Assembly: GCA_009602725.1 (NCBI GenBank)
Contig: WELB01000346.1
Coordinates: forward strand, 18,635 to 63,960
DNA: 45,326 nt
From: Spirogloea muscicola
Lineage: Eukaryota > Streptophyta > Zygnematophyceae > Spirogloeales > Spirogloeaceae
Reading direction: 5' to 3'
Shown here: piece after piece, positions 1-39,070 of the stretch
Layout: the number at the start of each line of letters is the position of its first letter
How positions within the stretch are numbered: position 1 is the first letter of the stretch
Made by a program: the position numbers and the translations under genes
The notes under the pieces: generated by a model
Database searches by the model: none
Told to the model about the DNA's origin: nothing
The model's input: only the letters and a program-made list of their open reading frames with translations

Positions 1-17
1 GGGGACCCACTTCCAGG

Positions 18-200
18 AGCCCAGCATCTCTGATCTGCGGCTGCTTAGCAGGGGTTACTGAGTGTCTCGTAGCAGCTTTGTTTCTGTTACTTAGCGCTTC
101 CCCTGGCCCCCTTCTCGTACTCTGTTCATTCTTTTTCGGGCTGGTTGTTCCAGCCCCTATTCTCAATGGGCGAGCACTTTCTTCTTTTCCCGCCAGCCGC
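18..200 (+). repeat. LINE 3' tail unit (last codons, 3' UTR, terminal hairpin)
   Basis: The unit starts with the end of a LINE reading frame reading SISDLRLLSRGY followed by a TGA at 59-61. It then continues through a 3' UTR to a perfect hairpin at 138-156, GGGCTGGTTGTTCCAGCCC, followed by CTATTCTCAATGGGCGAGC. The same series recurs at 12540-12700 and 35260-35550, and inverted at 36710-36870 and 37865-38020. The protein end matches the C-termini of the longer LINE fragments in this window, so it reads as a 5'-truncated LINE insertion. Confidence 0.8.
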
Positions 201-304
201 GCGGGCGTGGAGGGATTCCGGAGGGTAAGCGGCGGCCGCGGCGCGCCACCCCGCCGCTGACGCTGACGCTGACGCCACAGCAAGAAACAGCTCGTCCATG
301 ATGA

Positions 305-850
305 CGGCTATGGCTGTGAGAGGCCAGCCCAAATGAGAAAATCTCGTCTAGTTGATACAAACGAAGGCCAAATGGCCAAGTACAAAGGCAAGCACATCTA
401 GAACCCTACATGACTTACAGCGGATTAACCCGCTCAGTAACCACGGGTCAAAACATGAAGGTCGCTCATCGATGCCTTAATTCTAGATAGCAGATACGAA
501 GCCCTTCTGCCACCAACTAGAACACGCCCAGCTTTCTGGTGCAAAGCATTAGCCTGAGCACGCTGCAAACAGGCCGAAACTGGTTGTCGCAAGGACGACA
601 GATATGCAGCTGGGCATCTCAGTCAGAAACACATCTGCACGACGTGTGTAGCCCAATTTGGCAAAATTCCAGAGGAGTGTGTGGAAACGAAGACCCAGAC
701 AGCCAAAGATGTCGACTGCCGCTGGCAGGAGCTGATCGCACTGGGGATTATCGGAGTAGTGCTGCAGCTTTGTTGTGCACCGCCCAATGCGTGCCAGCGA
801 TGTGTGTCGATGAAGGGGTCGGGGTTTAAGCACCTCGGGCTTCCCTTCGA
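305..850 (-). pseudogene. LINE C-terminal fragment with 3' UTR hairpin (broken)
   Basis: On the minus strand, 549-850 encodes a stretch with HYSDNPQCDQLLPAAVDIFG, nearly the same as the LINE copy at 7961-8677 (HYSDYPRSDHLLPAAIDTFG). A frameshift near 545 separates this from the conserved tail SDLHVLTRGY, which ends at a TGA at 434-436. About 100 bases beyond the stop is the tail hairpin (312-330). Upstream of about 850 the frame is no longer recognisable. This is a dead copy of the C-terminal part of a non-LTR retrotransposon polyprotein, after its endonuclease domain. Confidence 0.75.
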
Positions 851-895
851 CTGAACAGCATTCGCTATCGCGCTTGTAGGCCCCTCCGAACCTTC

Positions 896-956
896 GGCAT
901 TTCTTTTTGGGCAGGCTTTTCGCAGCCCTTGCACCCAGTGGGAGTGCCACTTCTCT
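896..956 (+). repeat. LINE 3' tail hairpin, second subtype
   Basis: A hairpin-type tail, GGGCAGGCTTTTCGCAGCCC at 909-928, is followed by GGGAGTGCCACTTCT. The same hairpin-plus-flank combination occurs inverted at 4751-4815, so the two copies belong to one subtype. Between about 960 and 1785 I see no supported gene; open frames there show no recognisable domain. Confidence 0.6.
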
Positions 957-1784
957 CGCTATCATCACCCGGCCGCTGCCGACGTGTGCCCCTTTGCCAC
1001 GAACCACCGGAGGGAGGAGGCGCTCCCGTTCCTGCTCCGTGTCCTTCGATGGGCACGCCCACATGCACGGCGTGCCCTCAGCCCCGTGATGCAGCGCATC
1101 GCGGCGGACCACCACTTCAGGCAGTCTGGACAATTGTCATCCTCTTCCTTGCCTGTTGCTTGCATGCGTGTCCCATGAGGGCTGCAGTCATGGCCCGCCA
1201 GCCGCTCTTGGGCGCATCTCCCTCTTTGAGAGCAGGCGGTGCGCGGAGCTCCTGCGCAGCATGACGACGCTGTGACGATGCCGCGGCCAGTCGACATGAA
1301 CGCCCCCATCATTGATGTCACACAGGGCAGGTTGCTGTACGGCGTGCTCTTTGTTTGGCTACGGTGGTGAGCTCTCATGGGCAGTGTTAGCGCTGGACGA
1401 CTCCTCGCTGCCGCGCCAGCGTCCACGGCAACCAGACGATCCTTAGCTCCTGCACACCAAGGCATGCGCCTCTCACCTCCTTGACTGCCCTCCTTTGACC
1501 CGCAAGAGGGCAGGTGGTCCTCGATGCCGCTGCCCTCCACATGGCACTCCAGGGCAGCCGCTGTGCAGCTGCAGGCGGCTACTCCCACACACGCATGGAC
1601 CATCTGTGAGAGCTTCCATTGGAGGGGAGGAGCCAGAGATACGGGCGTCGCCCCACATTTTTCAGCTCGTCGCGCAAGACAAGGTCCCTGCTGCCACACG
1701 TGCAGTGCTCTGCACCAGCACCCTGCTCGATTAACAAGATGAATGGTGGAGTCCGCTCCGTTACTGTTGAGAGTTACTGTACCG

Positions 1785-2340
1785 CCTGGTGGCCTGCACA
1801 CTGTGGCAGCAGCACGTAAGGCAGGCCCAGACCCACCCTGCACCCCACCAGCACGGTGCTGGTTAGCGGAGCAGCGGTGAGCTGGATTTCACGGGGTCCG
1901 CGCAACGCTGGACCTGCCATTGGAGTGGATGGTCTTGGCGGTGCAGGTTTGCAATGCATTCAACAGTGTGGACCGAGGCAACATTGCTGAGGAGCTGCTG
2001 GAGGCCTTCTCCTCCCTCCTGCGCTGCATTGTCGCCAGTCTCAGCAGCGGCTGGCCGACCACAGCTTGACCACCCGGGCGGAGAAGTGCGTTGCTTGGTC
2101 CCCGAGAGGCCTCCCAGTCCCTTGACGCTGCCCTCTGGCTGCCAGACTCCTCAAGGCGGCTTCACCCTCTTGGAATCCCTCAGTGCACCGTCATTTGTGG
2201 AGGAGCAGCTGCGAGCACGGCTACAGGAGCACCTCCAGACAGCGGCCCTCCTCACTGAGCTGCAGGGCATGCAGCTGGCCCTCTCCTTGCTCACCAGGAG
2301 CATAGCGCAGCCTTTCCAGAATCTCACGTGGTCAAATCAG
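1785..2340 (+). pseudogene. LINE reverse transcriptase fragment, 5' part of a split copy
   Basis: The plus strand carries a decayed reverse transcriptase domain. Around 1930-1990 it reads VLAVQVCNAFNSVDRGNI, matching the LINE motif A block in which a catalytic Asp normally precedes xxNAFN; here the usual Asp has become Gln. From about 2155 to 2335 it continues with LLESLSAPSFVEEQLRARL and a helical stretch ending in LALSLLTRSIAQPFQNL, typical of the thumb region after the RT core. Stops and frameshifts make it non-functional. The copy breaks off at 2340, where copia sequence starts, and appears to resume near 6600. Confidence 0.65.
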
Positions 2341-2376
2341 GTGCAAAAATAGTCGCAGATCCAGGGCAGGGTCAAT

Positions 2377-2565
2377 GTGTCTGGGGTTGAGAGGAACAAC
2401 TGTAAGCAGTGGCATGCTTGTCTGGGACATCCCGATCTTCAGAAGATGGACAAGTTGAAGGGGATGGTGCATGGAGTAGACATTCCTGCAAAAGCTAATA
2501 AGTCTGAGTTCTGTCAGAGCTGTGTTGAGGGTAAACTTCCTCTTCAGCCACAGCCTGCTGTGTAG
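2377..2565 (+). pseudogene. Copia GAG-pre-integrase fragment
   Basis: This 62-codon open stretch contains WHACLGHPDLQKMDKLKGMV and a C-terminal SEFCQSCVEGKLPLQPQP. The H..L.H plus C..C pattern is the zinc-binding GAG-pre-integrase block that precedes the copia integrase core. It ends at a TAG and runs straight into sequence that belongs to the protease region, which is upstream in a normal copia polyprotein, so the order is inverted by rearrangement. No integrase core follows. Confidence 0.8.
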
Positions 2566-3640
2566 GGAGAGGAGAAAGTGCAGCTGCATCTGCCTACCTT
2601 CAATGGTACTGAGACGCAGCTTCTGAAGAGTGTATACCATGCACCTGGTCTGGCATCCAACCTACTGTCCGTGCCTCAGCTGTTAGACCAGGGCTATTAG
2701 GTTGTTTGTGACCGAGACCTCTGTACAATTAGGTTATAGGCCCACCGGGCGGCTCGCTTTCTGTCCTTACTCCCAACTTTTCAAGGACCACAAAATATAG
2801 GGTGGAAGTTCAAGATGACCAAGATGCTGCAGTTCAGAAACTTTTGGCACTTTTGATTTCTGTAGAGCCGACTTCAGATTGAGAGCTATGCCGGCCTCTC
2901 TCAAGAGAAAATGCTGTAGCTACAGCGATCCTCGTCGGAAATCGTCTAATGAGGAACTAATTGGAGTTATCAACAAACCTCTGGCTAGTGGCTTCTGAGA
3001 GCATCTACACCACAAAACAAGCAGGAACTGACAGAGCGTATGATCTTAGTATGAGACTGCGTGAATGCAGAAAGGAGGAGGATGAGCAGGGACAGGAGCC
3101 GGGACAGGAGCAGCCAGACCAAGAAAGATATCAGGTTGTGGGCACGGACGGAGGTGGGTATAGGTATAAAGCCATAAGTCGTCAATATATTCTGGCCAGA
3201 GTTGGAAAAAGCCAAGGTCAAGAACAATGGGGTTGCCGGCCAGGTCATGCTGGCTGCCCCATGATGACCTTCATTTACTTCTGGGCTCGCCAGCATTACC
3301 CCGGCAACAATCCCACTGCCTCCACCACCAGACTGTTCCTCAACTTCACCTTTCTAACTCTGGCCAGAATTTACTGACGACCTATGGCCTTGGTCCCTGT
3401 AACCACCTCCGTCGGGACCCATTACCTGACCTTAAGATTGTCTTGGTCTGGCTGCTCCTGTTCCTGTTCCTGTCTGCTGCAATCAACATTCTCAGATTCT
3501 TGGTTTCTCCAGTTAGAGTCCTCCATTGGATATTTGCCATCCTCCACAGTCCCAGCAGACTGCCCTCATCGCGGCGGCACAAGCGCCGATCCGCTCAGTG
3601 CGGCAGACAGCAGTCAGACTAGCACAGAATGTGCTTTCTC
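2540..3640 (+). repeat. Left arm of large inverted repeat in copia
   Basis: This stretch is repeated in inverted orientation at 5220-6420, with roughly 80-90% identity by eye. Coding-like sequence occupies 2540-3000 and noncoding sequence 3000-3640. The arm has its own internal palindrome centred near 3280: 3097-3215, with the GGAGCAGCCAGACC block, is inverted in 3345-3500. The mirror copy has a matching internal palindrome centred near 5610. Confidence 0.75.
2572..2720 (+). pseudogene. Copia protease-region fragment (copy 1)
   Basis: The frame reads VQLHLPTFNGTETQLL and then VYHAPGLASNLLSVPQLLDQ, the conserved stretch after the aspartic protease of copia Pol, before a TAG interrupts it. The minus-strand copy at 6400-6520 has the same sequence and additionally retains the DSGA-like protease active-site region upstream. 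Confidence 0.75.
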
Positions 3641-3755
3641 TGTTGTTGTCTCGATTCCTCTTGCGCCCCTGATCCTTGCTCAAAATTTCTCGTCTCCTGT
3701 GGAGAAGAGATGAGGTTGCAGTCTTGCATACCAGACCTGTCCAAGAGTACAGTAA

Positions 3756-4190
3756 TGTACGTAGCTGTGGCAGCACGTCCAGGTATAGCAGCAGCAGTGG
3801 GAGTGGTTGCTCAAAATGTACAAAATCCTGGTCGGGAACATTGGCAAGCTGAGAAATGGATCACGAGATATTTGCAGGGAACCAAGAGTTTCTGTCTGAC
3901 GTAAGCAAATATTAACATGTGATGAGCTGGGAGGTTGTTAGTATGCTAGTTGGGCAGGAAGTCTGGATGACAGAAGGTTGGTGATAGGTCATACTTGTGA
4001 GCTGGGAGGAGGAGCAGTCAGTTGGACTAGTAAGAAACAGCAGATGGTGGCGACTTCACATCATGAAGAAACCCAAGTACATGGCGACGACTGCAGCAGC
4101 AAAGAAAGCAACCTGGCTGACGAGACTACTTCGAGAATGTGGATATCTTACTTCGTCAAGTGCAACCACTTCATGCATTGATAGTCAAGG
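3756..4190 (+). pseudogene. Copia reverse transcriptase end and RNase H fragment
   Basis: The plus strand first reads AVGVVAQNVQNPGREHWQAE followed by WITRYLQGTKSFCLT, the conserved end of the copia RT. It then reads DDRRLVIGHTCELGGGAVSW, SKKQQMVATSHHEE and SNLADETTSRMW, the RNase H region. Stop codons and at least one frame change interrupt it. It lies in the loop between the two inverted arms. Confidence 0.8.
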
Positions 4191-4750
4191 TAGTATTCTT
4201 TGATCAAGATCCTGTCTATCATGCTCGTACTAAGTATGTAGAGATGCAAATGTAAAAGCAGAAGAGCTGTGACTAAACCAGATCAAACAGATGAAGGTAG
4301 TCTGTGCATAGTCATACCTGGACCACACATAGTAACATAGTGGTAGTAAAGTTAGATCGCTCTGAGAGTTGAAGAGATTCCTGATAAACGTACACTGAAA
4401 CTAGCTAAACCCACAGCTCCACCTGAGTGACATCACTTCATCAGAGGAAAGGTAGACGAGGAGTCATCAAAATGCAGAACTGTAGTACATCAGGTATGAC
4501 TGCAGATACTCTTATTCTGACCAAGGGCTTGCCTAAGCCCATGTATGATTGATGTGGAAGTATACTAGGTCTTGCTGATATCCCGTATGATGTGTGTGAT
4601 AGATCGCTGAATCAGCGGTTGAGCTGGGAGCCGTTTGAGCAGCCCAGTGGGCCGAAGGAGCGCTCCCGGTAGATATGGATGCCCAGGCACATCGGTCTCA
4701 ATTCTGTTGGTAGGAGTATTCTTCGGAGACTCGTGACTGCTAGCTGCACA

Positions 4751-4815
4751 TGCAGAAGTGGCACTCCCGATGGGGGCAAGGGCTGTGAAAAGCCAGCCCG
4801 AAAAGACTTGACAAT
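4751..4815 (-). repeat. LINE 3' tail inserted within copia
   Basis: On the minus strand the hairpin GGGCTGGCTTTTCACAGCCC (4780-4799) is followed by GGGAGTGCCACTTCT, as in the copy at 896-956. The tail is inside the copia loop and so may have landed there after the copia element did. The rest of the loop, 4200-4750 and 4816-5220, shows no recognisable gene. Confidence 0.6.
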
Positions 4816-5219
4816 ATGGTCTGGGTCTGGCTGTTGCGTGTGGAGCATGCGCTGTAGCGCCTCGGGATGCTCGTCACGGACAGCGGTAGACGAGGTCGAG
4901 GGCTTTGGACCCGGGAGTGGGTGGATGCCATGGGCCCCACACGCTGGCTGCCAGGCCAGCAGCCGGGTTGGCCGACCAGCTCAGCCTCCCCGCCGCGAGT
5001 CCCCTGCGGGTCGGGCCGGGGTCATGAGACACTGGAGGGCAGGCACCCCTTGCTCTTCTCAACACACCTTCGGGCCCTCCTAGTCCGGCCGCTTGCCAGC
5101 CGCCGCCGCAGCTGTCGTCGCCGCCGCCGCGCCATGGCAGGCGCGGCTCTCTCACAAATCCCCCATCTGAGGCCACGCAGTGCTCCCGTGCGCCCTAGCC
5201 ATGGCTGCCACCCACCTCG

Positions 5220-6420
5220 GGCGAGGGCAGAGTCTGTGCTAGTCTGGCTGCTGTCTGCCGCCATGAGCGGCTGTGCGCCTGCGCTGCCGAGACGATGGCG
5301 GTCTGCTGGCCTGTGGAGAAGGGCACACGCCCGATGGAGGCCTCTGACTGGAGAATACAAGAAACTGGAAATGTTGATTGCGGCAGACAGGAGCAGGAGC
5401 AGGAGCAGCCAGACCAAAGAAAGTTTCAGGAAGGGTACGGATCGAGGTGGGTGTGGGGACACAGCCATATGTCATCAGCATATTCTGGCCTGAGTTGAGA
5501 GATGTGGGACTTTGAGGTACAGTCTGGTGGTGGAGGCAGTGGGGTTACTGGCAAGGTATTGCTGGCGAGCACAAATGTAGACGAAGGTCGTCATGGGTCA
5601 CCCCGCCGGCAACCTGACTGCCTCCACCACGATGACCTTCGTGTGCATCTGGGCTCGCCAGCATTACCCCGCCCCGCTGGCAGCCTAGCTGCCTCCACCC
5701 ACCAGACTGTTCCTCAATTTCATATTTCCATGAAGTTGAAGACTCCGGCCAGAATGCACTGACGACCTACGGCTTTGTCCCCACACCTACATCAATCCGT
5801 ACCCATAGCCTGCACTGAAAGCTCTCTTGGTCTGGCTGCTCCTCTCATTGCTCCTGTATTGGCTCATCCTCCTCCTTTCTGCATTCACGCAATGTTATGC
5901 TGATATAAGACGCTCTGTCAGCTCCTCATATCAAACTTGTATTCTAGATGCTCCTAAATCCCGCTAGCCAGAGGCTGGACAACTGACATCTCCAATCAGT
6001 TCCTCATCAGACAGATTTTCCACGAGGATTGCTGTAGCTCCAGTATTCTCTCTTGAGAGAGGCCGGCATAGCCTTCGATCTGAAGTTGGCTCTACAGCAT
6101 GCCAACCGTTTTTGAGTTGCAGCATCTTGGTTATCTTGAGCTTCCACACTATTACAGGTTGTGGTCCTTGAAAGGTTTGGGACGAAGGACAGGAAGCGAG
6201 CCACCCGGTGGGCCCATAACCTGATCGTACAGAGGTCTCGGTCTAAACAACCTGATATCCCTGGTCTAACAGCTGAGGCACAGACAATAGGTTGGATGCC
6301 AGACCAGGTGCATGTTACACATTTCCCAGAAGCTGCATCACAGTACCATTGAAGGTAGGCAATTGCAGCTGCACTTCTCCTCTTCCCACAGCAGGATGCC
6401 CACTGTCATCGTCCAGATAT
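5220..6420 (-). repeat. Right arm of large inverted repeat in copia
   Basis: The reverse complement of this stretch matches 2540-3640. On the minus strand it includes the APGLASNLLSVPQL protease-region peptide (about 6250-6330), and it extends further to a DSGA-stop-HH peptide near 6500, the degenerate aspartic protease motif. A stop codon replaces the residue after DSGA, so this copy is inactive. Confidence 0.75.
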
Positions 6421-6599
6421 GTCTTGAAAGTAGGAACAGACTGATATATGTGCAGCCAATCCTGCTTGTAGGTCAGGTGGTGCTATGCTCCACTATCATC
6501 TCAACAGCTGTGATAGCTTGGCCTATCAAAGTTTGTTGACAGATTTGCCTGTCCTTCAGCCAGCACTTCTGTTTCTTCCTCTTCCGATGTAGTCATCAG

Positions 6600-7830
6600 A
6601 CTCCACTCCCCTCCAGAGGTGCTGGCAAGGTACGCGGCAGTCGACATGGGCGTCATGGCGAGCCTGGCGGCCCTCATCAGACACCGGGCCTTCCTCACCT
6701 CTCCAGCTGCACTGCACCAGGCAACTCTGCCCTGCTCTCCGGCTATGGTAGTCTAAGCTGCTGACTGCTTGCCCGCATGTGCAAGGCAAGGTACCTGGGC
6801 AGCTGGCGCAGGTCCCCTTTCAGGTGTCCCCGCAGCTTCCTCCTCCACGGTCGCTGTGCGCTGAAGCAGGCAGTTGCTCCAGCGGAGACGGGCTCGCTGC
6901 CGTCCAAGATGACTCTCTGCTCGGCTCACAACGAGCTGCTGGATGGGCACCCAGACCTGGCAGGCGATGCAGCCCCTTCTGTGCACCTCGCGCACACCGC
7001 CGACCCCTTGGGCTCAGGTGGACTATGCGGCAGATATGGGAAAAGAGATTCTTCACGATCACAGCTTCTCCCTGAGGCGGATCTGCGAGGGCGTGCATGG
7101 CTGCGGACGTCGTTGAACCCCAGAGCAGCAGCATGGCGCGTTACTCTTCCTATCTATGATGTGCTATGGACGCTGGATGAAGCCTTCAACACAAGAGTCC
7201 ATACTGGCCGCCTCGGCCTTCCTCCGCCCTGCCTCCTGAGGGTGTTGCAGAGCGATTGCAGTGAGAGGGGGCGAATGCAGCAGAACTGGTGGCACACGTC
7301 CTCCAATGTGCACATGGATTGGAGCGGATGGCAGCCCATGTCCTCCTTCGAGAGTTTGGCATCTCCTGGAGGCTGGATATCATGTGGTCATGTGAAATAT
7401 ATCCATCATGCCCATCCAGATCAGGGCTGACTAGCTATCAGTACGGCACGTCGACCTGATTGCCACCAAGCCGGGTGGGGGGCCACGAGTCCTTGTAGAT
7501 GTGGACATTGAGGCTGACTTCATTGCCGCTGGCTCTCTGGCCCCTGATGTACCGCATGCGGCTCCCCATCTCCCTGCAGAGTTCTTCGGTTCACGCCTTG
7601 TGTCTGCGAGCAGGCCATGCCCTGGGTGCCGCCTCTGGCTATAAACAGGGGGGACTCCTGTCCGGCTATTAGGTTTTGGTGTTGCGGCTGCTGCCTAGGG
7701 CGTTGTTACCGAGCGGCCATCCTTAATGATTCCTTGTCATATGCGTGCTATTCGCATTCCGTCTCTTCTGGACCTTGTCACCCTTGGTGGGCTGGCTTTT
7801 CACAGCCCTCGCCCCCCTCAGATTAAAAGC
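6600..7830 (+). pseudogene. LINE connector, endonuclease and 3' tail: 3' part of the split copy
   Basis: After the copia edge the plus strand resumes LINE-like coding: PPEVLARYAAVDMGVMASLA (about 6610-6670), then LPIYDVLWTLDEAFNTRV and LGLPPPCLLRVLQ (about 7140-7260), which correspond to the block before the zinc knuckle. Next comes VDLIATKPGGGPRVLVDVDI (about 7450-7510), the restriction-like endonuclease core with two Asp separated by 14 residues. Frameshifts and stops separate the blocks. The tail hairpin GGGCTGGCTTTTCACAGCCC is at 7789-7808. This copy faces the minus-strand LINE at 7961-8677 tail to tail. Confidence 0.65.
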
Positions 7831-7960
7831 TGCTCTCTGTCACAGCCCTTGCCCCTGTGGAAAATGCGTGTATATTAAGAGATGGGGAGGCCATGTGTGG
7901 CCAAGTACAAAGGCAAGCACATTGGACAAATGTACGTCACCTGCTGCTAAGCTGACCCGC

Positions 7961-8677
7961 TCAGTAACCACGAGTCAGCACATAGAGGTCGCTAGCTGAC
8001 GCTCGAATACCGGACGGCAATTGACTAGCTCTTGTGCCAGCAGCTAAGGCTCGACCAGCTTTCTGATGCAGAGCATACGCCTGAGCTCGTTGCAGACAGG
8101 TTGACACTCGACGTCGCAGAAATGACAGATAGGCTGCCGGCATACCCATCTGGGCTGGGAGCATATCCTCGCGTCGTGCATATCCCAGACTCGCTATGTT
8201 CTCGAGTAGGGTATGGAAGCGAGGACCCAAGCAGCCGAAAGTGTCGATTGCGGCCGGGAGGAGGTGGTCACTGCGGGGGTAGTCTGAGTAGTGTCGGAGC
8301 TTTTTCTGCTCAGCACCTCCCACTGCGTGGCCAGCAATGTGTGTGGAAGCGGAACTCTTGTATGCCTCAGTCACCACCACATCAACCAAAGCTCGTGGGC
8401 CTCCGCCAGGTTGTACACCCACAATGTCCAGGGTGCGACGGTGATGGCCTCCCTGGGAATCCGTGGTGATGGGCATTACATTGCTCACTTCAACGATGGC
8501 GCGGTAGCCGGCGTCGCGCATCAAGCCCGCCAGGGCGTCCCGTAGGAGATTGTGGACGCCCACCACCTCAGGGCCTGTGGGACACCGCAGCATGTGGGAT
8601 GAGCCCTTCCGCTTTTGTACAGCCCTCGCCCCATCATCAGGAGCTGCTTCTTCCTGCGTGACATTTGCATCCAACAA
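7961..8677 (-). pseudogene. LINE C-terminal region with restriction-like endonuclease domain
   Basis: This is the longest open LINE stretch on the minus strand (238 codons). It contains SHMLRCPTGPEVVG, the end of the CCHC zinc knuckle, then RTLDIVGVQPGGGPRALVDV, with two Asp spaced by 14 residues as in the R/KPD-X12-14-D/E motif of R2-type endonucleases. HYSDYPRSDHLLPAAIDTFG and the tail SDLYVLTRGY follow, with TGA at 7961-7963. The RT part is missing, so the copy is 5'-truncated and defective, although this stretch has no internal stop. Confidence 0.8.
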
Positions 8678-8760
8678 GCAGTTCCGCGTTCCATCTCATC
8701 GATCCATGGTTCATCCTTTTGCGGCGGGCCCTTCACAGCCGTCATCTTCTCCTCCAGAGA

Positions 8761-9000
8761 AAGAGCTTTTCCATATAAGGCAATGGCTGTGCGAGGCCAG
8801 CCCGAAGAAGGAACAGCTTTCCAGCCCCTATTCTCAATGGGCGAGCACTTTCTTCTTTCCATGTTACTTAGCGCTTCCCCTGGCCCCCTTCTCGTACACT
8901 GTTCATTCTTTTCGGGCTGGTTGTTCCAGCCCCTATTCTCAATGGGCGAGCACTTTCTTCTTTCCATGCAAGGCAATGGCTGTGAGAGGCCAGCCCAGAG
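8761..9000. repeat. Cluster of LINE 3' tails, two in tandem
   Basis: Two plus-strand tail units follow one another at a period of about 106 bp: CCAGCCCCTATTCTCAATGG begins near 8820 and again near 8926, the second inside the complete hairpin GGGCTGGTTGTTCCAGCCC at 8914-8932. Minus-strand hairpins lie on both sides at 8785-8803 and 8978-8996. The cluster ends about 290 bp before the MAP kinase start codon; 9001-9283 shows nothing else recognisable. Confidence 0.75.
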
Positions 9001-9283
9001 ACGACAGGGCTGCCTCCACAAAGAGGCCCTTTCCGGCCCTTTCCTACCTTGTACAATCCCGTTCGTCTCCCGTCGCCTGCTCTTGGGCCCGCTCCCCGCG
9101 GACTTCCACGCCCGTCAGCGCCTCCTGGCTGCTGGCTTTCGCAGCCGCTCGTTAAATATCAGCAGCACCATTCCCTTGTTCCTTGTGGGTAACTCTGCGC
9201 TAAGTCGGCCCGCGCTGTCGGCCACCCCCCCCACGGGGCGGGCGCTCGCCAGGCCCAGGCATGGCGCCGTGAGGCGGCGCGCC

Positions 9284-11345
<2,062 letters not shown>

Positions 11346-12180: not shown

Positions 12181-12189
12181 GAAAGAGAG

Positions 12190-12260
12190 AGAGTGGCTCT
12201 CAAAGGGGGCGAGGCTGTGAACAGCCAGCCCGAGAAGCATTGACGAGCAGGAAGGAGCAG
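12190..12260 (-). repeat. LINE 3' tail hairpin
   Basis: On the minus strand the hairpin GGGCTGGCTGTTCACAGCC (12213-12231) is followed by TCGCCCCCTTTGAGAGCC, the second tail subtype seen also at 7789 and 36510. The stretch 12262-12540 after it is GC-rich with several open frames but no recognised domain. Confidence 0.6.
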
Positions 12261-12539
12261 TGTGTCCTTCGCCTCACTCAGAAGGCGGCTGCTGCTCGTC
12301 CTACCGCCGGTCCACCCGAGTCCGGCTCGCGGCCCGCCAAGGCGCCCTGGTGCACGCCTCCGGCAGGCCGTGCGCCGGCAGGAGATGGGCAAGGCGGGCG
12401 CGCGGTGCCCGCGACATGGACAAGCACCTGTTCCCTTCGCTACGAGAGCAAGGCAGTAGGAGACGGCGGGGCGCCAGCGGCACAGGGGCGAGGCGAGTGG
12501 GGAGACGGGGCGGGCGCCGTCTGGCTCTGGCTCTGTCCA

Positions 12540-12785
12540 GGGGACCCACTTCCAGGACCCTAGCCTCTCTGATTTGCGGCTGCTTAGCAGGGGTTACTGA
12601 GTGATTCCTCTGGCTTCCTCTGGCCCCCTTCTCGTTCTTTGTTCATTCTTTTTTGGGCTGGCTTGTCCAGCCCCTATCCTCAATGGGCGAGCCCTTTCTT
12701 TCTCTCTTTGTGTGCTTTGGTTTCTTAGCGCTTCCTCTGGCTTCCTCTGGCCCCCTTCTCGTTCTTTGTTCATTCTCTTTTGGGA
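12540..12785 (+). repeat. LINE 3' tail, one complete and one partial unit
   Basis: The unit begins with the LINE tail peptide SLSDLRLLSRGY and TGA at 12598-12600, passes a 3' UTR and reaches hairpin GGGCTGGCTTGTCCAGCCC at 12655-12673. A second 3' UTR copy follows (12723-12780) and stops abruptly at the start of the LINE endonuclease fragment. A tail array directly upstream of a 5'-truncated LINE suggests insertion of one copy into the tail of another. Confidence 0.75.
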
Positions 12786-13829: not shown

Positions 13830-13888
13830 GCCGCCGCCGCCGCCGCGGCCGCCCCGAGCGGCAGTGGTTGCGGTGGTGGGCTGCCTGC

Positions 13889-23195: not shown

Positions 23196-24117
23196 GCACT
23201 TCTTGTGGCAGCATCTTAAGTCCTGCACTGCGCCCGTGCAACGGTATGGAGCCCTCGGGCGTCCTGCTGCCTCGCCTTTTCAGCCCCTCCTCCATGCGTC
23301 CTGTTCTTGTGTGCCTGGCTTACTCGGACGCTGCCGACGCCGCACCGCCCAGCAGAGCAGCCGTCGTCAAGACGTCGCCGCCAACGGCGCGCACACGTTG
23401 CTTCGGTGCAAAGGGTGGTGGTCGGAGCACGGCTGGGAGGTGCTCGAGGCCGGCAGCCGAGCAAGCGGGCTGCGGCGGGGAAGAGGGCAGAAGGGTCTCT
23501 TCCGGAGGGGGAGACGGAGAAACAGAGACAGCTCTTCCCATGAGAGGCCTTGGCTGTGTGAGAGGGCCAGCCCAGGAAGAAGGACGCTTCCAGTGGAGGG
23601 CGATGGCTGCAGTTGGCCAGCCCAGAAGAGCAGTAGACAGCGGGAAGGGGCCAGAAGAGCGCCAAAGCACACAGCAGCTCAAGTGGCTGCTGGGGTGGCC
23701 AGCCTAGAAGCGATGGCAAACGGCTCTGCCAATTCACGGCAAGAAGCTGTGAGAGGCCAGCCCAAGGAATGGATAAGGTCCGAAAGGGGTCGGATGGCGC
23801 GACAAGCAGGAGTGATGGGTTTCCTGGACAACAGCGAGAGGCGCTCAATAACCTCTAGTCAGCAAGTGCAGCTGAGGATGGGAGGAGGACGGAAAGTGGA
23901 GTGGGATGGGATGGGAGTGGACAGGAAAAGCAGCGGGGGGTGGGGAGGGTGGGGGCCACCCGGGGGTGGCCGTCACGGCAGACGGCAGCCGTCAAGCCCG
24001 GCGCGGCGCGCTTGACGGCGGCCCGCCGACCTGCCCCGCCGTCAAGAAGCTCCGCCCCCGCCGGGCGGGGAGGCAGGCAGAGGCCCCACCCAGGCCGCAC
24101 CCGCCGCGCCCGCCGCC
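23196..24117. repeat. Flippase 3' flank with three LINE tail hairpins
   Basis: Minus-strand tail hairpins occur at 23552-23573, 23605-23623 and 23746-23763, each a variant of GGGCTGGCC-loop-CAGCC. Between them are decayed 3' UTR-like pieces. From about 23870 the sequence becomes very G-rich and then GCC-rich up to the gap, probably the promoter side of the next gene. I see no gene here. Confidence 0.6.
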
Positions 24118-24410: not shown

Positions 24411-24412
24411 CC

Positions 24413-31510: not shown

Positions 31511-34500
31511 TCAGCGCGGAGGGTAGCCCTGTGGATAGCCCTGAGGAGGGTAGCCCTGCTGCGGCGGGTAGCCCTGCTGCGGCGGGTAGCCCTGCTGCGG
31601 CGGGTAGCCCTGCTGCGGCGGGTAGCCCTGCTGCGGCGGGTAGCCCTGTGCAGGGTAGCCGGGTGCTGGGTAACCTGCGGGCGCTGGGTATGGCTGGCCC
31701 TGTGGGGGGTATCCTGCTGGAGGATGTTGTGGGGCATAGGGAGCCGGCGGCTGGGGCGGATAGCCCTGTGGGTAAGTCTGAGGAGGAGGACCCTGCGCAT
31801 ACGGGATTGTCTGCGGACAAGCCACATAATTATCAACAAAGGCTCAATGTGCTGAATCAAGGCAAACACCTGGATATCTGAGGCAGGAATTGAACGAAGG
31901 TCAACTTCAATAACATGTGTTTCCTGAAAACAGAGCAGTGTAAAAGTATGTATGTCACTGACTATAGAAACTTGTGACAACAAGAACTAGGTGTCAATAT
32001 GGCTCAGGTTATAGAAGGAGAAAGTGGAAGGAGCATGACATCTTTGTAGGCCCCCAATTTGCATCTTTGTCCATGAGATTCTCGAAGGTGTGAAGGCAGA
32101 GTCGATCAGAGAAGTGAGGGTGCAACTCACTTCATCCCTTCTCATCTGCTGTGGTGCTGGCGGAGCCATGACAGGAGCGCCCCCAAACTTGCCATCCCGC
32201 TTGTCCAGCTCAAGCTTGTGCTGGGTCTGTGTCCCAAGATGGCATCCCAGGTGTTAAAGAGGGGGCCTGGGCCTAACCACGCCCCACTCGATGAATATAG
32301 AGCACCCAACGTAGTACAGGAAACGCACTTGAGAATTACCAGGTACTGGGAAGACAGATGGCACAACAGAAATCATTGTCTAAGTTGCTACACTTAAAAG
32401 TACCATAAATGGCTGGAGGGACATACCTGCATGCAGGCGCAAACACTGAAGCAGCACACCAGGATCGCATTCAGTGAGTGTGTTAGCAACAGTGATGAGA
32501 GTGACAGAACCAGTTTTGAGAATGTGAGACCAAAATCTTCAAATGTGCATCCTCCCAAGTGCTACACACCACAAATTTCTTGGTTGTACTAACATTCTTA
32601 CATCGTGCACAGCAATGCATGCTTGAGTACCTGCAATATACAATGTCGGACAGTAGGTTCAAAATGTTGGCAGCCTCTTGAAGGTCGCCATTGCCACTGA
32701 GTGCAGCAATGCATGAGAAGATGCAGGCAACTTGCTGTAGAATAAGCATAAAGCCCTGCAACAGCCACGTGGATTGGTTAGTCGGGGCGAGGGCTGCAAA
32801 AGGAAGCCACGTTTCTCTCAAAGGGCAAACCTCTATCTAACAAAGCACGTGCAGACTATGTGCCATGTCTCTTTAGCTTAACCAGTTGTGCACTTGTAAC
32901 CACCGGTGCACTTCGTTAAGCCTTTCCGCCAGCTAATCGAATACCAACTAAGACTGCAAGAGACGGAAACCTTAGGCTCCAAAGAGACTGTACACAGTGA
33001 GTGACTCACAATGATGCAATTGTCACATTTTGTCGTCTGTATGTTGAATTCGTCCTGGAGCAAGAAGCGCGTGGATGCAACGGAGTTGGCGAAGCAACAA
33101 AACACCTGCATAAAATCACAAGGCTGGTATGAGCTACGTTACGGACTTTGGTAATCTGGCTAAGTATCTATCTTGCTTGTGAAAACTCGTGACTAAGAGA
33201 TAGCTCTCACAGTCCCTCTTGTGGCCTTGTCACCAGTAGAGCCGTTCAGCATCCTGAGCTGAACATGCTGTTACCCTGTCCTCTACTGTTGCCTGCTAGG
33301 CTGTTGCCAGGCTTCAGCGAGCAGCTCTAGGTCCAAAGCTCAAGGTGCACTATGCAGAAGTGCCATGGCGCACAGCCTAGACCCCGTGCAAATGAGATGG
33401 TGTGCATCAGAATGAACGCCTGGACAAACGAGAGCTCACTTACTTCCAGACAGAGGCAAAACTCCGGGCACTTGGATTCGCCACACCGGCCGCTGCAAGG
33501 AAGATATCCTCCACAGCATTGGTACCTGCCCAATGAGTCAATGAGGAAGTGTGACTGATTGGAGCAAGCTTCTAGCTCCAGCCGGAGCAGAAGGCCTTTG
33601 CAGGCAAGAGATGGGGTGACCATTGGCCCCTAGCGGCAGCTTCTGTATGCCATTGGCTATAGCATAGGCACTAAAGTCTCAGAAGCCAAGGACATGCAGA
33701 CACTGGCTAGACATCGGTACGGAAAACTCACGAGTCGAGGACATACATGCAAGTTTGCAAGTGCAGGATCTGAGTTTAAGGTCAGAGATACAATGCCCTA
33801 CACAAGAGCATCCTGTATTGCAAGGAGGCTGCTGACTCCGCACCTGGTCATGTCATCATACAAAGTCCTCTTCCGCAGGAGGTAGGATACACAGGAGCCA
33901 CTGGCAAGAGAAGCAGACAATCAAAGAGCGCCGATGTGAGAAGCCGGCAATCCATCTCCATAGAAGGCTGCTACACGGGGTGTGCTCTAGATGCTCATTG
34001 CACGGCTCACCATCTCAAGAGCTTCCTTTTACATAAATGCTCTCATTCTGGTAGTCAAGAGTGAAGGCCACATAGGACAGGGCTATTTGAGACTTGAGAG
34101 ACTGCCGAAAGGTTTGTAGCGTATCATGATGGTTGGTTACAGGCTGGGGAGCTCACCAAAATGCCGAAAACATGCAATCTGGACACAAGGAGCACAGTAG
34201 AAGCGGAAGCAGTCACGAGGCAACCAGCAGTAAGTACATGGCCAGAGCCTCAAGCTTGTCCACAACTCAAGGCTGCAACTGCAGTGACTGTTATGCGCAA
34301 CAGCCGGCAAGACGGCTGACTAATGACTCTGCCAAAAGCTAGAAAAGTTAGATTTGGAGCAGTCTGTGCTCCACTTGCAAACAATTGCTGCTTAGATAGA
34401 CCGCCGAGCCAAGGCAATCTGCGATGGAGCTCGGAGCTGAAGTTCCAGGGCAATCGGGGGCACGCGGCTGGACGTGAACACGGCCAGCCAAGCAGAGCTG

Positions 34501-34656
34501 AACGCAGGGCCAGGGCGGGAGCGGAGAGCAGGGCGGGGGCGGCTGGCGCTCACATCCGCAGTCGGCCTGAGGCGCGTGCATGAGGTCGGTGTGCCAGTTG
34601 TGCGCGTAGTTCTGCCGCGCCTGCATTTTCTCCACGTTCATCTTGTTGATCGACAT
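31511..34656 (-). CDS. Cysteine-rich conserved protein with GYPPQQ-repeat tail
   Basis: Minus-strand exons, 5' to 3', are 34656-34554, 34178-34157, 33900-33844, 33525-33444, 33105-33010, 32755-32631, 32445-32427, 32226-32131 and 31810-31511, giving 299 aa with every junction GT-AG and in frame. Two are micro-exons of 22 and 19 nt. The N-terminus [20 protein letters not shown] leads into cysteine clusters: CMFSAFCGSC (36-45), [20 protein letters not shown] (62-81), [20 protein letters not shown] and TTKCDNCII (to 120). A hydrophobic stretch [20 protein letters not shown] (121-140), [17 protein letters not shown] (163-179) and a 99-aa XYPPX-type Pro/Tyr/Gln tail follow. I recognise this as a conserved, uncharacterised algal and land-plant family with PLAC8-like cysteine spacing; the function is unknown to me. 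Pro/Tyr/Gln tails of this type often associate with membranes or condensates, which is only a hint. Confidence 0.88.
31548..31646 (-). repeat. 18-bp coding tandem repeat (GYPPQQ)
   Basis: Five near-identical copies of an 18-bp unit (plus strand GGGTAGCCCTGCTGCGGC) lie in the last exon of the cysteine-rich gene and encode GYPPQQ. The copies are identical at the DNA level by eye, including third positions, which suggests recent expansion or homogenisation. Looser GYPP/GYPA copies flank the array. Confidence 0.95.
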
Positions 34657-35250
34657 GGCTGCCGACGCCGCAGCTGCCCGGCCTAAGGGCCACCACCGAG
34701 CTCGTGGCCACGCCGCACGAGGAGCCCGCGCTCCGGCTGCGCCAGCGGCCGAGGCGCCGCAGAGACGGCGACGCGCTTCTCCCGCGAGGCTCAGCAGCGA
34801 AGCCGCCGCTGGCCGCTGGTGCCGCTTCGGCCGCCGACCGGCAGCTGCCGTGTGCAGGCGCCGGCGGGCGCTGCGCACGGCCGAGGCTCCTCCCTTGCAA
34901 ATGAGGCGCGAGCTCGACTCCGGAAGAAGCTTATTGCCTCGGCGGCAGCGGTTTTGGTCGCGGCGGCGGCGGCGTCAGGGGTGGCGGAGGCGGCGGCGGC
35001 GGCGGCGGCGCCGGCGCTGGCGCCGCGCCCCGAGGTGGGGCTCGCTCCGCACAGCGGTAGTTCCTGGGAGCCGTTAGTAGGAGGAGCAAGCCGCGATAAG
35101 AAGTGGTTAACTGGGTGCGACGTTCGCCGTCGATCCCAGGTCAAGGCCCTCTCGAGCCGTCGATAGAATCCCACTGCCGCCGTTGCGCTCCGATTACCCG
35201 CCCGCCTTGTCTGCCACACCGACGGGGCGACTTCTGCCCCTGACCATCCT
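34657..35250. promoter_or_regulatory. GC-rich upstream region with GGC triplets
   Basis: The region upstream of the cysteine-rich gene is very GC-rich and contains a GGC/GCC run at about 34960-35015. Open frames occur on both strands (for example plus 34819-35166 with a long Ala stretch) but they have no recognised domain and resemble low-complexity shadows. It is likely the promoter and 5' UTR. Confidence 0.4.
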
Positions 35251-35255
35251 TCTCA

Positions 35256-35550
35256 CAGCCCAGCATCTCTGATCTGCGGCTGCTTAGCAGGGGTTACTGA
35301 GTGTCTCGTAGGAGCTTTGTTTCTGTTACTTAGAAAGAATGTGCTCGCCCATAGAGAAGAGTGGCTGGCAAAGCCAGCCCAAAAAGAATGGACAATATCC
35401 CAAGCCAAAGAAAGAGAAAGGGCTCGCCCATTGAGGATAGGGGCTGGACAAGCCAGTTACTTAGCGCTTCCCCTGGCCCCCTTCTCGTACTCTGTTCATT
35501 CTTTTTCGGGCTGGTTGTTCCAGCCCCTATTCTCAATGGGCGAGCACTTT
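35256..35550 (+). repeat. LINE 3' tail interrupted by an opposite-strand tail insertion
   Basis: A plus-strand tail starts with SISDLRLLSRGY and TGA at 35298-35300. It is interrupted at 35333 and resumes at 35456 with the rest of the 3' UTR and hairpin GGGCTGGTTGTTCCAGCCC (35508-35526). The interruption 35334-35455 is flanked by the direct repeat GTTACTTAG (35325-35333 and 35456-35464). Confidence 0.85.
35334..35455 (-). mobile_element. Tail-only LINE insertion with 9-bp target duplication
   Basis: The 122-bp insert contains, on the minus strand, a hairpin end TGGCTTGTCCAGCCC, the flank CTCAATGGGCGAGCCC, then another short unit with GGGCTGGCTTTGCCAGCC and a final GGGCGAGCACATTCTTT. It holds no coding sequence. 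Direct repeats of GTTACTTAG on both sides mark a true insertion event rather than decay. Confidence 0.8.
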
Positions 35551-35779
35551 CCTTCTCACAAGCAATTGCCCCTCTTCGCGGGAGAGCATCTTCACTCCTG
35601 CTTCCTCTCTTTTCCACTCAACTTCCACCCATTTTCTGCATGCGGCTAACCATATCCTTCCAACGGTCCCAGCATCAAGCAGTGCAAACCGCTATGGCTG
35701 CTGCCTCGTTGGGGTGCCTCTTTTCCAGCTGCACTTGCATAGCTGTGTTGGCGCCTTCTCGGCCCTCGGACCTCTTTGG

Positions 35780-36085
35780 ATTCTGTCCATTCTTTTTGGG
35801 CTCGCTTCTGCTCCCTCAGACCTTGTCCATTCCATTGGGCTGGCCTTTCCCAGCCACCAGTCAATCTTGGCCGCGCTTCTCTTCTGCCAGCCCCTCTCTT
35901 CTGTGGGCGAGCTCATTCTTCTTGTTCACAGCCCCCGCCCCCCATTGTACAGCTCACTTCCCCATGCCTTCTGCATATTGGCTCGGCTTGGCCTCCCTTT
36001 GCTGCAAGCGCACCGCGTGCCTCCCTGCCTTTCCCTCTAAGACCATGTCCAGTCTTTTCGGGCTGGCCTTTTAGAGCCCTCGCCC
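35780..36085 (+). repeat. Degenerate LINE tail units
   Basis: Plus-strand pieces with TTGTCCATTC followed by GGGCTGGCCTTTCCCAGCC (about 35840) and GGGCTGGCCTTTTAGAGCCC (36060-36079) then TCGCCCCCT are separated by sequence with GTGGGCGAGCTCATTCTTCT, the usual tail end. The units are older and more diverged than those at 35256-35550. Sequence from 35550 to 35780 and from 36086 to 36470 holds nothing else recognisable. Confidence 0.55.
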
Positions 36086-36479
36086 CCTTTGGCATGTAAG
36101 CTCTAAGCTCCTCTTGGAAGAGCCCCTTACTTTCCCATGCTGCTAAATATGTCCACCTTGCAGCTTTTTGCGACTGGCTGCTCTCACCGGGGTGATCAAG
36201 TGGCTATCTGCAGCGGCCACCCGTGTTGGGGTTCCTGCCGGACTTTGTCACTCATTCTTGCCTTACTCTTTAGACCTTGTTCATTGGCACACTCGCAAAA
36301 GTCACAGAATCTTCTTTTTTGCAGTTTAGGCTCCTTCCAGCCCTTTTAGACCTTGTTCAGTCTCTTTTGGGGCTAGCCTCTCAAAGCTGACTGACATTTT
36401 GACTTGCGGCTGCTAACTAGAGGGTTACTAATTGGTTATCCTACATGGTACTTGCTCAGGTGAGAGTCTCACCACTTTT

Positions 36480-36665
36480 CGGCCCTTTCGGATAATGTCA
36501 GTATTGTCCGGGCTGGCTTTCCACAGCCCTCGCCTCCTTTTGAAGAGCCACTTTCTCTCACAGCCATCACATTCCTTTGGGAGAGTTATCGTCTTCCCGC
36601 TCCCAGGACCTTTCCCTGGTCACTTCTTCTTTGGCCTGGGCTGGCCAATCACAGCCATCAAAGCC
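36480..36665 (+). repeat. LINE tail hairpins, second subtype
   Basis: GGGCTGGCTTTCCACAGCCC (36510-36529) followed by TCGCCTCC, and GGGCTGGCCAATCACAGCC near 36640, are plus-strand tail hairpins within otherwise unrecognisable sequence. Confidence 0.55.
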
Positions 36666-36699
36666 CTCTACTGAAAGAGTCGTTCTCTTTCCCCGCGGA

Positions 36700-36960
36700 A
36701 AGTGCTCGCCCAGTGAGAATAGGGGCTGGAAAACCAGCCCGAGAAAGAATGAACAGAGTACGAGAAGGGGGCCAGGGGAAGCGCAAAGAAACAGGAACAA
36801 AGCAGCTACAAATCACTCAGTAACCTCTGCTAAGCAGCCGCAGGTCGGAGATGCTAAGCTCGTTGAAGTGAGAAGAGAAAAAGCTCGCCCATAGAAGAGA
36901 GGGGCTGGCAGAAGCCAGCTAAAAAAGAATGGACAAAATCCAAAGAGCCACAGGAAGTGG
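36700..36960 (-). repeat. Two LINE 3' tail units, minus strand
   Basis: A full tail reads on the minus strand from SDLRLLSRGY-like codons and TGA at 36817-36819 to hairpin GGCTGGTTTTCCAGCC (about 36724-36740) and the CTCACTGGGCGAGCACTTTC end. A second partial unit (36871-36960) has hairpin AGCTGGCTTCTGCCAGCCCC and TATGGGCGAGC. Confidence 0.75.
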
Positions 36961-36989
36961 CCAGAGCCAGAGGCAGCAGCGAGGGCTCT

Positions 36990-37145
36990 GCCGGCACGAA
37001 GGTGCAGGTTCCCCGCCCTGTACTAAAAACTGCAGTCCTCTCGCGCGCAGGCCACGCTAGAGCTGCTGCCTTTTGGGTCTCGACGGAGCGCCTTGTTCCC
37101 AGCTGCGACTTACTCGGACTTGCTGCTGCTCACTCGTGGGAGAGA
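36990..37145 (+). pseudogene. LINE C-terminal tail codons
   Basis: One frame reads YSDLLLLTRG near 37110-37135, matching the conserved SDLxLLTRGY end of the LINE polyprotein, preceded by poorly conserved sequence. The stop codon is lost. Downstream at about 37190-37235 is a minus-strand tail piece with GGGCTGGCTTTTCCC. Confidence 0.45.
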
Positions 37146-37849
37146 AGGAAAGCGCGGCCAGATTGACTGGTGGCTGGGAAAAGAAGAAAGTGCTCGCCCA
37201 AGCCAGTGGGAAAAGCCAGCCCAAAGGAATGGACAAGGTCTGAAGGCGCGCGGTGCGCTTGAAATTAAAGCGAGGCCAATTCAAGCTAATACATTGTTCA
37301 GGCAGAATTGCAGAAAGTGCAAAGAATGCAGCGCAAAGAACGTGGCTACATGCTTACTCGTGGGAATTGAGCGTCAGCCACTTTCTTAGATTCTCGCTTT
37401 CCCCCGCCCCTGCCGAACACCGCGGGCCCGCTCTAGGGCGACGCGAGCCGGTTCGATCCGCATCCCGCGCCTGTGATGTCACACCCCCCCAGCGGGCTCG
37501 TCCCGCAGCCAGTTAAGCAGCCGCTCCGTTCTTCTCGACTGGCGGAGGCCGTCACTGTTGCGAAATGGGCTCGCCCATTGAGAATCAGTGGGACAGATAT
37601 CAACTGCGGGGGAGGGACGGATTTAACGAGTGTTACAGATTGGGGAGAGGTGATTTTTAACAGCATCCCTTGTAGCGACTTATGTCCGTGTGAGACGCCT
37701 GAGGGCAAGGCTGTAGGCACAATAACGCACTTGCAGCTTGCTGCCTAGGAGACCCCTCTCTACTGTCGATCTTTGGACGGCAGTATCAGTACAGCATACC
37801 TGTCGCTTAGGCCCGCCGTGCTTAGCGGTGCAGTAGAGCAGCTTATTGA

Positions 37850-38020
37850 CCCCTGTGGGAAGTGGACAAGCCAGCCCAAAAAAGGATGAACAAAGAACGA
37901 GAAGGGGGCGAGGCGAAGCGCTAAGAAAGACAAGCACACAAAGAATCAAAGCAGCTACGAATCACTCAGTAACCCCCTGCTAAACAGGCGCAAGTCAGAG
38001 AAGCTAGGCTCCAGGAAGTC
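37850..38020 (-). repeat. LINE 3' tail unit, minus strand
   Basis: The reverse complement carries the tail codons and TGA at 37966-37968, the 3' UTR with CCTCGCCCCCTTCTCGTTC, and the hairpin start GGGCTGGCTTGTCC, after which the unit is cut at about 37860. A small piece with TTCTCAATGGGCGAGCCC also lies at about 37567-37590. Sequence from 37240 to 37850 is otherwise unassigned. Confidence 0.7.
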
Positions 38021-38159
38021 ACTGGTACTCCTCCTGTTCTTCACCCTATTGCCTGAACGATGTATTGGCTCGCAGTGGCCACCCTTTCACCTGCTGGCAC
38101 CAGGTTGCCTCCCTTCTTCCCTTGCGCTTCCCTTGTCTGGCTGGCCCTGGAGCCGAGGT

Positions 38160-38720
38160 GGAGGAGGCTCCTTGGCATTCCAAGTGCAATTGAGGAGCAT
38201 CCGGAGAGTCAGCACTATGCTCCTTCCCCTCCCTACAACCCCTCCTCACCCCCTTCTCAGCGCTGGCCCAAGCACCAGACAAAGCGGCACAGGCCAGACT
38301 CGTTGCTGCAGTTGAGGACGAGAGTCGCAAGTCATTGAGGACGATGCCAGATATCAAGAACAATCCAAGGAGTCTGGCACGTCTCACATCGCTCGCAACC
38401 TGGGCAACGGATTGGCTCACAACACAGGCAATCCACAACGCTTTCAGAATCAGCCGCAAAGCATTCCGGACGCTTCTCCAGCTGTTCCTTGGCCTGCCCC
38501 CGACCTGCCTGATTGGAGTGACTCAGTGTGAGTGCGGCTTCCGTGCAGAGGGCGGAGACCTTGCCACCCCCATGCTGCGGTGTCCCACAGGCATCACTTA
38601 GCGACCTCTATGTGCTGACTCGTGTTTACTGAGCGGGTCAAGGTCAACTTAGCAGCAGGTGACGTACATTTGTCAATGTGCTTACCTTTCTACTTGGCCA
38701 CACATGGCCCTCCCTCTCTC
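38160..38720 (+). pseudogene. LINE zinc-knuckle fragment with internal deletion
   Basis: An 88-codon frame (38335-38601) includes FLGLPPTCLIGVTQCECG and LATPMLRCPTG, the LINE C-x-C...C knuckle block with the His position changed. Directly after CPTG comes SDLYVLTRVY and a TGA at 38630-38632, which normally lies more than 200 codons later. The endonuclease domain has therefore been deleted. The 3' UTR after the stop (CAGCAGGTGACGTACATTTG) is shared with the copy at 7961-8677. Confidence 0.7.
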
Positions 38721-38854
38721 AATACACACTCATTCTTTCATCTCATGCGCACCGCGCGCCTTCTTACCAGCAGAGCGAGCAGCCCGGCTTCAATGCCGGG
38801 TCGATCGCTTGCTCAAGTACAGGATGGGCCTGGCAACCTCCCTCGAAGGTCCTT

Positions 38855-39070
38855 AACTTTTGCTGTCCACTTGCGTGCAGGCCGCGCCTTGGCTGCTGCC
38901 TCCAGGTTCGGTCAGGGCGACGCATTTCCGCCCTCTGCTTATTCTGACTTGCACTTAATGACTAGAGGTTATTGCAAGCCTACTTGCTGACGTCTTGGAT
39001 ACTAGAATCCTGCTTGTAGCGCAATCCGGCCATTTCCATTCCTTTGGGCTGGCCTCTCACAGCCACTGCT
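38855..39070 (+). pseudogene. LINE C-terminal tail and 3' hairpin
   Basis: The frame reads AGRALAAASRFGQGDAFPPS then YSDLHLMTRGY, matching AGRALAAGTRASQLPSG...SDLYVLTRGY of the 7961-8677 copy. The usual stop is replaced, so the frame runs five further codons. A hairpin GGGCTGGCCTCTCACAGCC follows at about 39046-39063. Confidence 0.7.

Follow-up and report, generated by a model that had tools for sequence, protein, structure and literature searches.

What is the short hairpin, GGGCTGG..CAGCC at its core, that recurs in a stretch of 45,326 nucleotides (nt) from the zygnematophycean alga Spirogloea muscicola (assembly GCA_009602725.1, contig WELB01000346.1, positions 18,635 to 63,960 of the forward strand; hereafter the window)? 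An earlier reading of the letters alone (the sequence-only reading) had taken it for part of the tail of a long interspersed nuclear element (LINE), preserved as an RNA structure that the reverse transcriptase binds. With a probability of about 0.6, we propose that a LINE family, probably R2-like and possessing a restriction-like endonuclease (RLE), carries the hairpin as the core of its 3' tail, through which its reverse transcriptase would recognize the RNA. All results rest on this one window of 45 kb, in which 704 bases are undetermined.

The hairpin belongs to a module of about 70 nt, of which 22 copies were aligned (approximate consensus, TGTCCATTCTTTTTGGGCTGGCTTTTCACAGCCCCTGCCCTC-ATGGG---GC-CTTTCT). 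With orientation taken from the LINE coding strand, 11 copies lie in sense on the + strand and 11 on the - strand. All 20 sites named in the sequence-only reading, which had placed them on both strands, show the hairpin, intact or decayed (decayed, for example, at 909, 36060, and 23746), and all 20 fall within the 22 aligned copies. Hairpin abundance was compared with 200 dinucleotide shuffles, merging overlapping calls so that each hairpin was counted once. Hairpins with 6+5-bp arms numbered 18 (shuffle mean 1.22, maximum 5), those with 5-bp arms 21 (mean 2.68, maximum 8), and the 7-bp stem form occurred five times versus 0.01 in the shuffles. A count above 20, as had been claimed, holds for 5-bp arms or for module copies but not for 6-bp arms. 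Five of six control stems were near background; the sixth, GCTGG..CCAGC (14 versus 2.48), sits within the same tail hairpin. A covariance model built on the 22 copies recovered 21 of them at an E-value (E) of 5e-6 or better, as expected by construction, and the 22nd, from the stem onward only, at E 0.0047. It added a composite copy at 37183-37244 and, among 43 matches up to E 10, weaker partial copies. An Rfam search of the window gave two sub-threshold matches, neither of them on a tail, and two DNA patterns and one protein search found no relatives in viral contigs.

The module is tied to LINE coding ends. A protein-motif search for such ends returned 14 matches, of which 10 were kept (12984, 22158, 42141, and 1689 were dropped as not being LINE ends), and an eleventh, 38600+ (SDLYVLTRVY), was found through self-comparison and sequence. 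Counting from the nominal stop position and on the same strand only, we found a hairpin after 7 of these 11 ends, at 54, 70, 76, 76, 79, 89, and 103 nt (binomial estimate for 7 of 10 ends, 1.6e-11); one of the seven, 37877-, has its 3' arm cut. The hairpin had been described as following a stop codon that directly succeeds the LINE C-terminus: the position at 54-103 nt stands, whereas the stop codon comes directly after RGY in just four of the seven, the other three being frameshifted or reading further. In the seven coding-anchored copies, a comparison that admits only ends with a recognizable hairpin, the mean majority frequency reached 0.95 for the stem, compared with 0.84 for the coding end, 0.74 and 0.68 for the 28 nt preceding and the 26 nt following the stem, respectively, and 0.58 for the upstream untranslated region (UTR), in agreement with the claim that the stem is kept while its flanks vary. 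Among the most distant of these copies, similarity across the full module does not clearly exceed that of the coding end; therefore, it is the stem, not the module in its entirety, that shows special conservation. Separately, the LINE ends of SDLYVLTR type at 7863-8002 (-) and 38591-38734 (+) have a common 3' UTR with a different small palindrome, GGCCACACATGGCC, and their alignment ends at about the expected position of the tail hairpin.

The tail copies and the insertions associated with them are as follows (the number after "hairpin" is its start).

116-185, + strand: tail module, hairpin 138, subfamily A, 76 nt after a LINE stop codon
283-352, - strand: tail module, hairpin 330, 103 nt after the stop of SDLHVLTRGY
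887-956, + strand: tail module, hairpin 909, without an attached coding end
4752-4822, - strand: tail module, hairpin 4799
7767-7836, + strand: tail module, hairpin 7789; a weak right half of a tail follows directly at 7838-7864
7961-8608, - strand: LINE C-terminal coding fragment with a predicted endonuclease-like domain and D-x14-D spacing, ending in SDLYVLTRGY
8756-8825, - strand: tail module, hairpin 8803
8818-8854, + strand: partial tail copy beginning within the hairpin loop
8863-8968, + strand: tail copy, hairpin 8914, at the 3' end of the copy at 8818; CTTTCTTCTTTCCATG at 8848-8863 and 8953-8968
8949-9018, - strand: tail module, hairpin 8996
12184-12253, - strand: tail module, hairpin 12231
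12568-12702, + strand: LINE coding end SDLRLLSRGY, stop, and tail (hairpin 12655), then a second, partial tail at 12719-12784
23526-23785, - strand: three tail copies, hairpins 23763, 23623, and 23573, the last matching the model from the stem on only
35247-35560, + strand: 5'-truncated LINE end 35258-35549 with coding end, 3' UTR, and tail (hairpin 35508)
35247-35257 and 35550-35560: 11-bp duplications TCCTTCTCACA around that LINE end
35334-35455, - strand: 122-nt insertion within element 35258-35549, with tandem tails (partial, 35456-35414; hairpin 35380)
35325-35333 and 35456-35464: 9-bp duplications GTTACTTAG of the 122-nt two-tail insertion
35778-35919, + strand: tail X, its loop split by the 69-nt tail-only insertion 35812-35880 (hairpin 35837)
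35805-35811 and 35881-35887: 7-bp duplications CTTCTGC of insertion X
36038-36107, + strand: tail module, hairpin 36060
36347-36586, + strand: tail Y (36347-36387, 36555-36586), its hairpin apparently split by a LINE end with its own tail (hairpin 36510)
36616-36688, + strand: tail module, hairpin 36638
36693-36849, - strand: LINE coding end SDLRLLSRGY, stop, and tail module (hairpin 36740)
36873-36944, - strand: tail module, hairpin 36920, its 3' end adjoining the truncated LINE end at 36849
37143-37250, - strand: tail Z, its loop split by the 23-nt tail fragment 37184-37206
37207-37215 and 37175-37183: 9-bp duplications CTTTTCCCA of insertion Z
37863-37999, - strand: LINE coding end and tail (hairpin 37877), the hairpin cut by an insert of about 270 nt
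38943-39093, + strand: LINE coding end SDLHLMTRGY and tail module (hairpin 39046)

The insert of about 270 nt (37594-37863), which cuts the tail of LINE end 37999-, shows no duplication on visual inspection, and the tail has lost about 6 nt.

Several copies have boundaries sharp enough to read as insertions. In three duplication-flanked insertions with a full hairpin, the 3' end lies 42, 44, and 47 nt after the first hairpin base. Target-site duplications of 11, 9, 9, and 7 bp were found at four insertions; with random coordinate pairs, 2.3% of trials gave at least 7 bp and 0.5% at least 9 bp, figures that flatter the cases because the junctions had been chosen by eye before testing. The copy at 8863 repeats 16 bp, but this repeat overlaps the element end, so that the length of its duplication is ambiguous. 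Element 35258-35549 is 5' truncated within the coding end, has the 11-bp duplications on its flanks, and, minus its nested insertion, agrees with the copy at 19-179 at 160 of 161 positions. Copies end in a pyrimidine-rich tract (CTTTCTTC-like), not poly(A): the 32 tail ends examined have pyrimidine-rich ends or flanks and no A tract. Tandem tails occur at 12655-12784 and 35334-35455. In the latter, both tails entered together, with a single duplication, and therefore transcripts may carry two tails. The position after 7 of 11 coding ends, the 42-47-nt boundary, the target-site duplications, and the moved tail-only copies together identify the module as a LINE 3' tail, as the sequence-only reading had held.

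By analogy with R2 and L2-clade LINEs, the tail hairpin may plausibly act as an RNA structure to which the reverse transcriptase binds. The RNA would fold in the cell, and the LINE protein would recognize the tail through the hairpin and its flanks, nick the target DNA, and then prime reverse transcription at the tail end on a purine run complementary to it. Early drop-off would leave many copies that keep little beyond the tail.

A number of results weigh against this proposal. Four of the 11 LINE ends (35268+, 7993-, 37114+, and 38600+) have no same-strand hairpin in range, although 35268+ is counted as a miss because a later antisense insertion split off its tail (hairpin at 35508). A short hairpin is possible in nearly all tail copies; however, complementary conservation across subtypes, which had been asserted, was not seen when compensatory stem changes were sought among the 22 copies of the window. 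The stem is either invariant or broken: none of the six pairs showed a double-sided change (the stem is mostly invariant, which leaves little power), two pairs are invariant across all 22 copies, and the outermost pair is unpaired in 10. Paired cells made up 90.2% as observed and 90.9% after shuffling of the 3' letters, that is, no excess, and 457 of 500 such shuffles reached the observed covariation. Single-sequence fold z-scores for 10 of the 22 copies ranged from -4.37 to +0.08. Folding of single sequences suggested an outer helix joining the two flanks in subfamily A, which was rejected because flank-to-flank pairing within copies was no better than between copies (permutation P 0.54 across 22 copies, 0.61 without three near-duplicates, and 0.91 without seven A-like copies). 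Conservation of the stem may thus be conservation of sequence, and the data do not separate sequence from structure.

The assignment to a LINE class meets similar difficulties. Pfam, NCBIfam, and PDB sequence searches of the LINE fragments gave insignificant, unrelated matches only, and no reverse transcriptase domain was found by Pfam in 20 chosen open reading frames (ORFs) of the window, where the copies are 5' truncated. The four-sequence AlphaFold2 model of the C-terminal domain is of low confidence, with a mean predicted local distance difference test score (pLDDT) of 54, and none of its 516 Foldseek matches up to E 10 was below 0.001. Nevertheless, the two best Foldseek matches in the PDB were R2 retrotransposon proteins (probability 0.99, E 0.016 and 0.020, TM-scores 0.43-0.48); the next match had a probability of 0.25, and the highest other probability among the matches listed was 0.63, for an fdxN element excision controlling factor protein. 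Three C-terminal fragments have in common a D-x14-D spacing, a feature considered in judging a possible PD-(D/E)XK endonuclease domain, and two have an AE-KK-HY segment. Judging from the modeled fold, the C-terminal domain is probably the RLE of an R2-like LINE.

The tails are also nested in one another: X, Z, 35334-35455, and 8863 are each located within or next to another copy. Insertion X, a 69-nt tail-only copy with 7-bp duplications, and insertion Z, a 23-nt tail fragment with 9-bp duplications, each lie in the loop of an older tail, whose joined flanks match the tail model at 28 and 33 bits, respectively. Insertion Y has a weak joined-flank match (9.9 bits, E 0.05) and no exact duplication, and resembles a decayed third loop insertion. 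These two insertions with duplications and the decayed third suggest that the hairpin may also be a landing site. The target of a further insertion, E1, looked by eye like a tail loop, but E1 was not counted because its joined flanks gave no tail-model match. All eight right-hand partial copies start at model positions 26-34 and all three left-hand ones stop at positions 31-40, within the hairpin at 23-42; these counts leave out weaker matches of a sequence-only model, one of them beginning outside the hairpin (position 46, E 6), and the positions are biased because two left-right pairs come from single tails and hairpin-less fragments are hard to detect. CAGCC occurs within 16 nt after 6 of the 32 tail 3' ends (P 0.005 versus a pyrimidine-context background of 5.0%), including copy 138, whose 3' flank (CTTTTCCCGCCAGCC) resembles a split loop and whose 5' end lies beyond the window. 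Both the CAGCC excess and the partial copies fit a preference for pyrimidine runs such as the hairpin loop.

These observations bear on whether GGGCTGG..CAGCC is kept as a DNA landing site and not as an RNA structure, the endonuclease preferring its own tail and loop insertions renewing the target. The loop insertions X and Z with the apparent third at Y, the partial copies, and the CAGCC excess all speak for such a site, but clean cases are few, and insertions into known repeats are more visible than others. Furthermore, the partial copies lack independence (both halves come from X and likewise from Y, and 37894- is cut by a foreign insert), other duplication-flanked insertions hit the UTR, the end of a tail, or sequence without a tail match (E1), and a landing site alone leaves the constant 3' distance unexplained. 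We regard this explanation as unlikely. A combination of the two functions seems to us a tentative idea of similar rank: at the RNA level the tail hairpin would recruit the reverse transcriptase, and at the DNA level its pyrimidine-rich loop would be a preferred landing site. The nicked purine strand would anneal to the CUUUC end of the tail, and each insertion would split an old hairpin and bring a new one, making a reusable safe harbor that the LINE carries with it. Such a dual role rests on few events and would be new as far as the matched literature goes; among the matches listed, there was no account of this tail or of LINEs landing in their own hairpin loop.

Could the hairpin have no function, being shared by copies of recent common origin in which, as follows from 5' truncation, the 3' end was always retained? 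The absence of covariation, the near-identity of several copies (138, 8914, 35508, and 36740 at 88-94%), and the whole module being hardly more alike than the coding end in the most distant coding-anchored copies are all in line with this. On the other hand, a stem at 0.95 compared with 0.68-0.74 in the tail and 0.58 in the UTR would not be expected from descent alone, a comparison limited to ends with a recognizable hairpin, and we consider the idea improbable. Least credible of all, and very improbable, is an independent short element, such as a short interspersed nuclear element (SINE), that LINEs acquired. Many copies do lack a coding end, and the 69-nt insert 35812-35880 has little beyond the module. 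However, the module stands at the same place after 7 of 11 LINE ends, the tail-only copies have no common upstream head in self-comparison, and no tRNA gene was found in the window, a search that decayed tRNA-like heads would escape.

Other features of the window were recorded. A cluster of sense and antisense tails at 8699-9020 lies a few hundred bases upstream of the probable start, near 9284, of a mitogen-activated protein (MAP) kinase gene, whose exon at 10059-10475 matched mitogen-activated protein kinase 6 (229 bits) and MAP kinase 4 (211 bits) best, both of them plant proteins, and MAP kinase 1/ERK2 at a lower 176 bits, which places the window in the green lineage. A Rab exon gives no such indication: it matched animal Rab11 best (122 bits) and RABA1a less well (101 bits). 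An inverted pair of about 1.1 kb (2551-3634 and 5227-6398) is 78-80% identical and holds three ORFs without a Pfam match. An 18-bp minisatellite lies in 31518-31648, with 5.6 perfect copies at 31548-31648; by eye, its - strand would read PQQGYP.

How does this tail compare with those of known LINEs? In zebrafish L2 elements, the 3'-tail stem-loop was shown to be needed and bound (PMC4176376). The stringent-type tails of UnaL2 and ZfL2-1/ZfL2-2 (L2 clade) resemble the Spirogloea tail in having a short stem-loop near the LINE 3' end (PMC4176376), and here a 3'-terminal sequence with a stem-loop is common to 22 copies, with the 42-47-nt boundary in three insertions. Loop-specific recognition has been shown for UnaL2/ZfL2, whereas in the Spirogloea tail the stem sequence is most constant and the loop is variable. 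UnaL2 terminates in repeats of TGTAA (PMC3747384), of which the Spirogloea tail shows none. Support of the stem by compensatory changes was seen at 0 of 6 pairs in 22 sequences, with little power, and the window, which has no tRNA gene and whose tail-only copies have no common head, gave no partner SINE sharing the tail. Within the green lineage, the L1 lineage of maize and sorghum and its SINEs likewise have about 45-50 conserved 3' nt with a hairpin, whose stem varies and for which compensatory changes were inferred (PMC3747384), unlike the Spirogloea stem. In addition, plant L1s nearly all end in poly(A), whereas the Spirogloea tail has none and its C-terminal domain is weakly R2-like.

The last 65-67 nt of the 3' UTR are needed and suffice in R2Tg, the R2 of zebra finch (PMC12222951), a length close to the approximately 70 nt aligned here, and R2 proteins gave the best fold matches of the C-terminal domain. 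However, the R2 3' RNA has two hairpins or a pseudoknot, whereas the Spirogloea copies share one short hairpin only, and R2 inserts in 28S rDNA, whereas no rRNA family was matched in the window. Most RLE-bearing LINEs are target-specific (PMC4640811). Nested self-insertion, as in X, Z, 35334-35455, and 8863, is known from the Zepp LINE of Coccomyxa/Chlorella, which nests in older copies and thereby forms arrays mostly of 3' ends (PMC8226300, PMC3446292). Zepp, which belongs to the L1 LINEs, clusters at centromeres or chromosome ends, whereas the Spirogloea tails lie among genes, with two to three insertions in the hairpin loop. The Zepp element ends in poly(A), and an A tract of this L1 type was absent from all 32 tail ends.

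The Spirogloea LINE family combines known traits, and its tail is best filed as a stringent-type LINE tail. The literature suggests that the choice of RNA by LINE enzymes has been tested in few lineages. A tail of about 70 nt, carried by several diverged LINE ends and also inserted on its own, with target-site duplications, as pieces of 23 and 69 nt, would offer such tests a compact natural substrate outside animals. If the loop is indeed a landing site, a retrotransposon could confine damage to its own remains.

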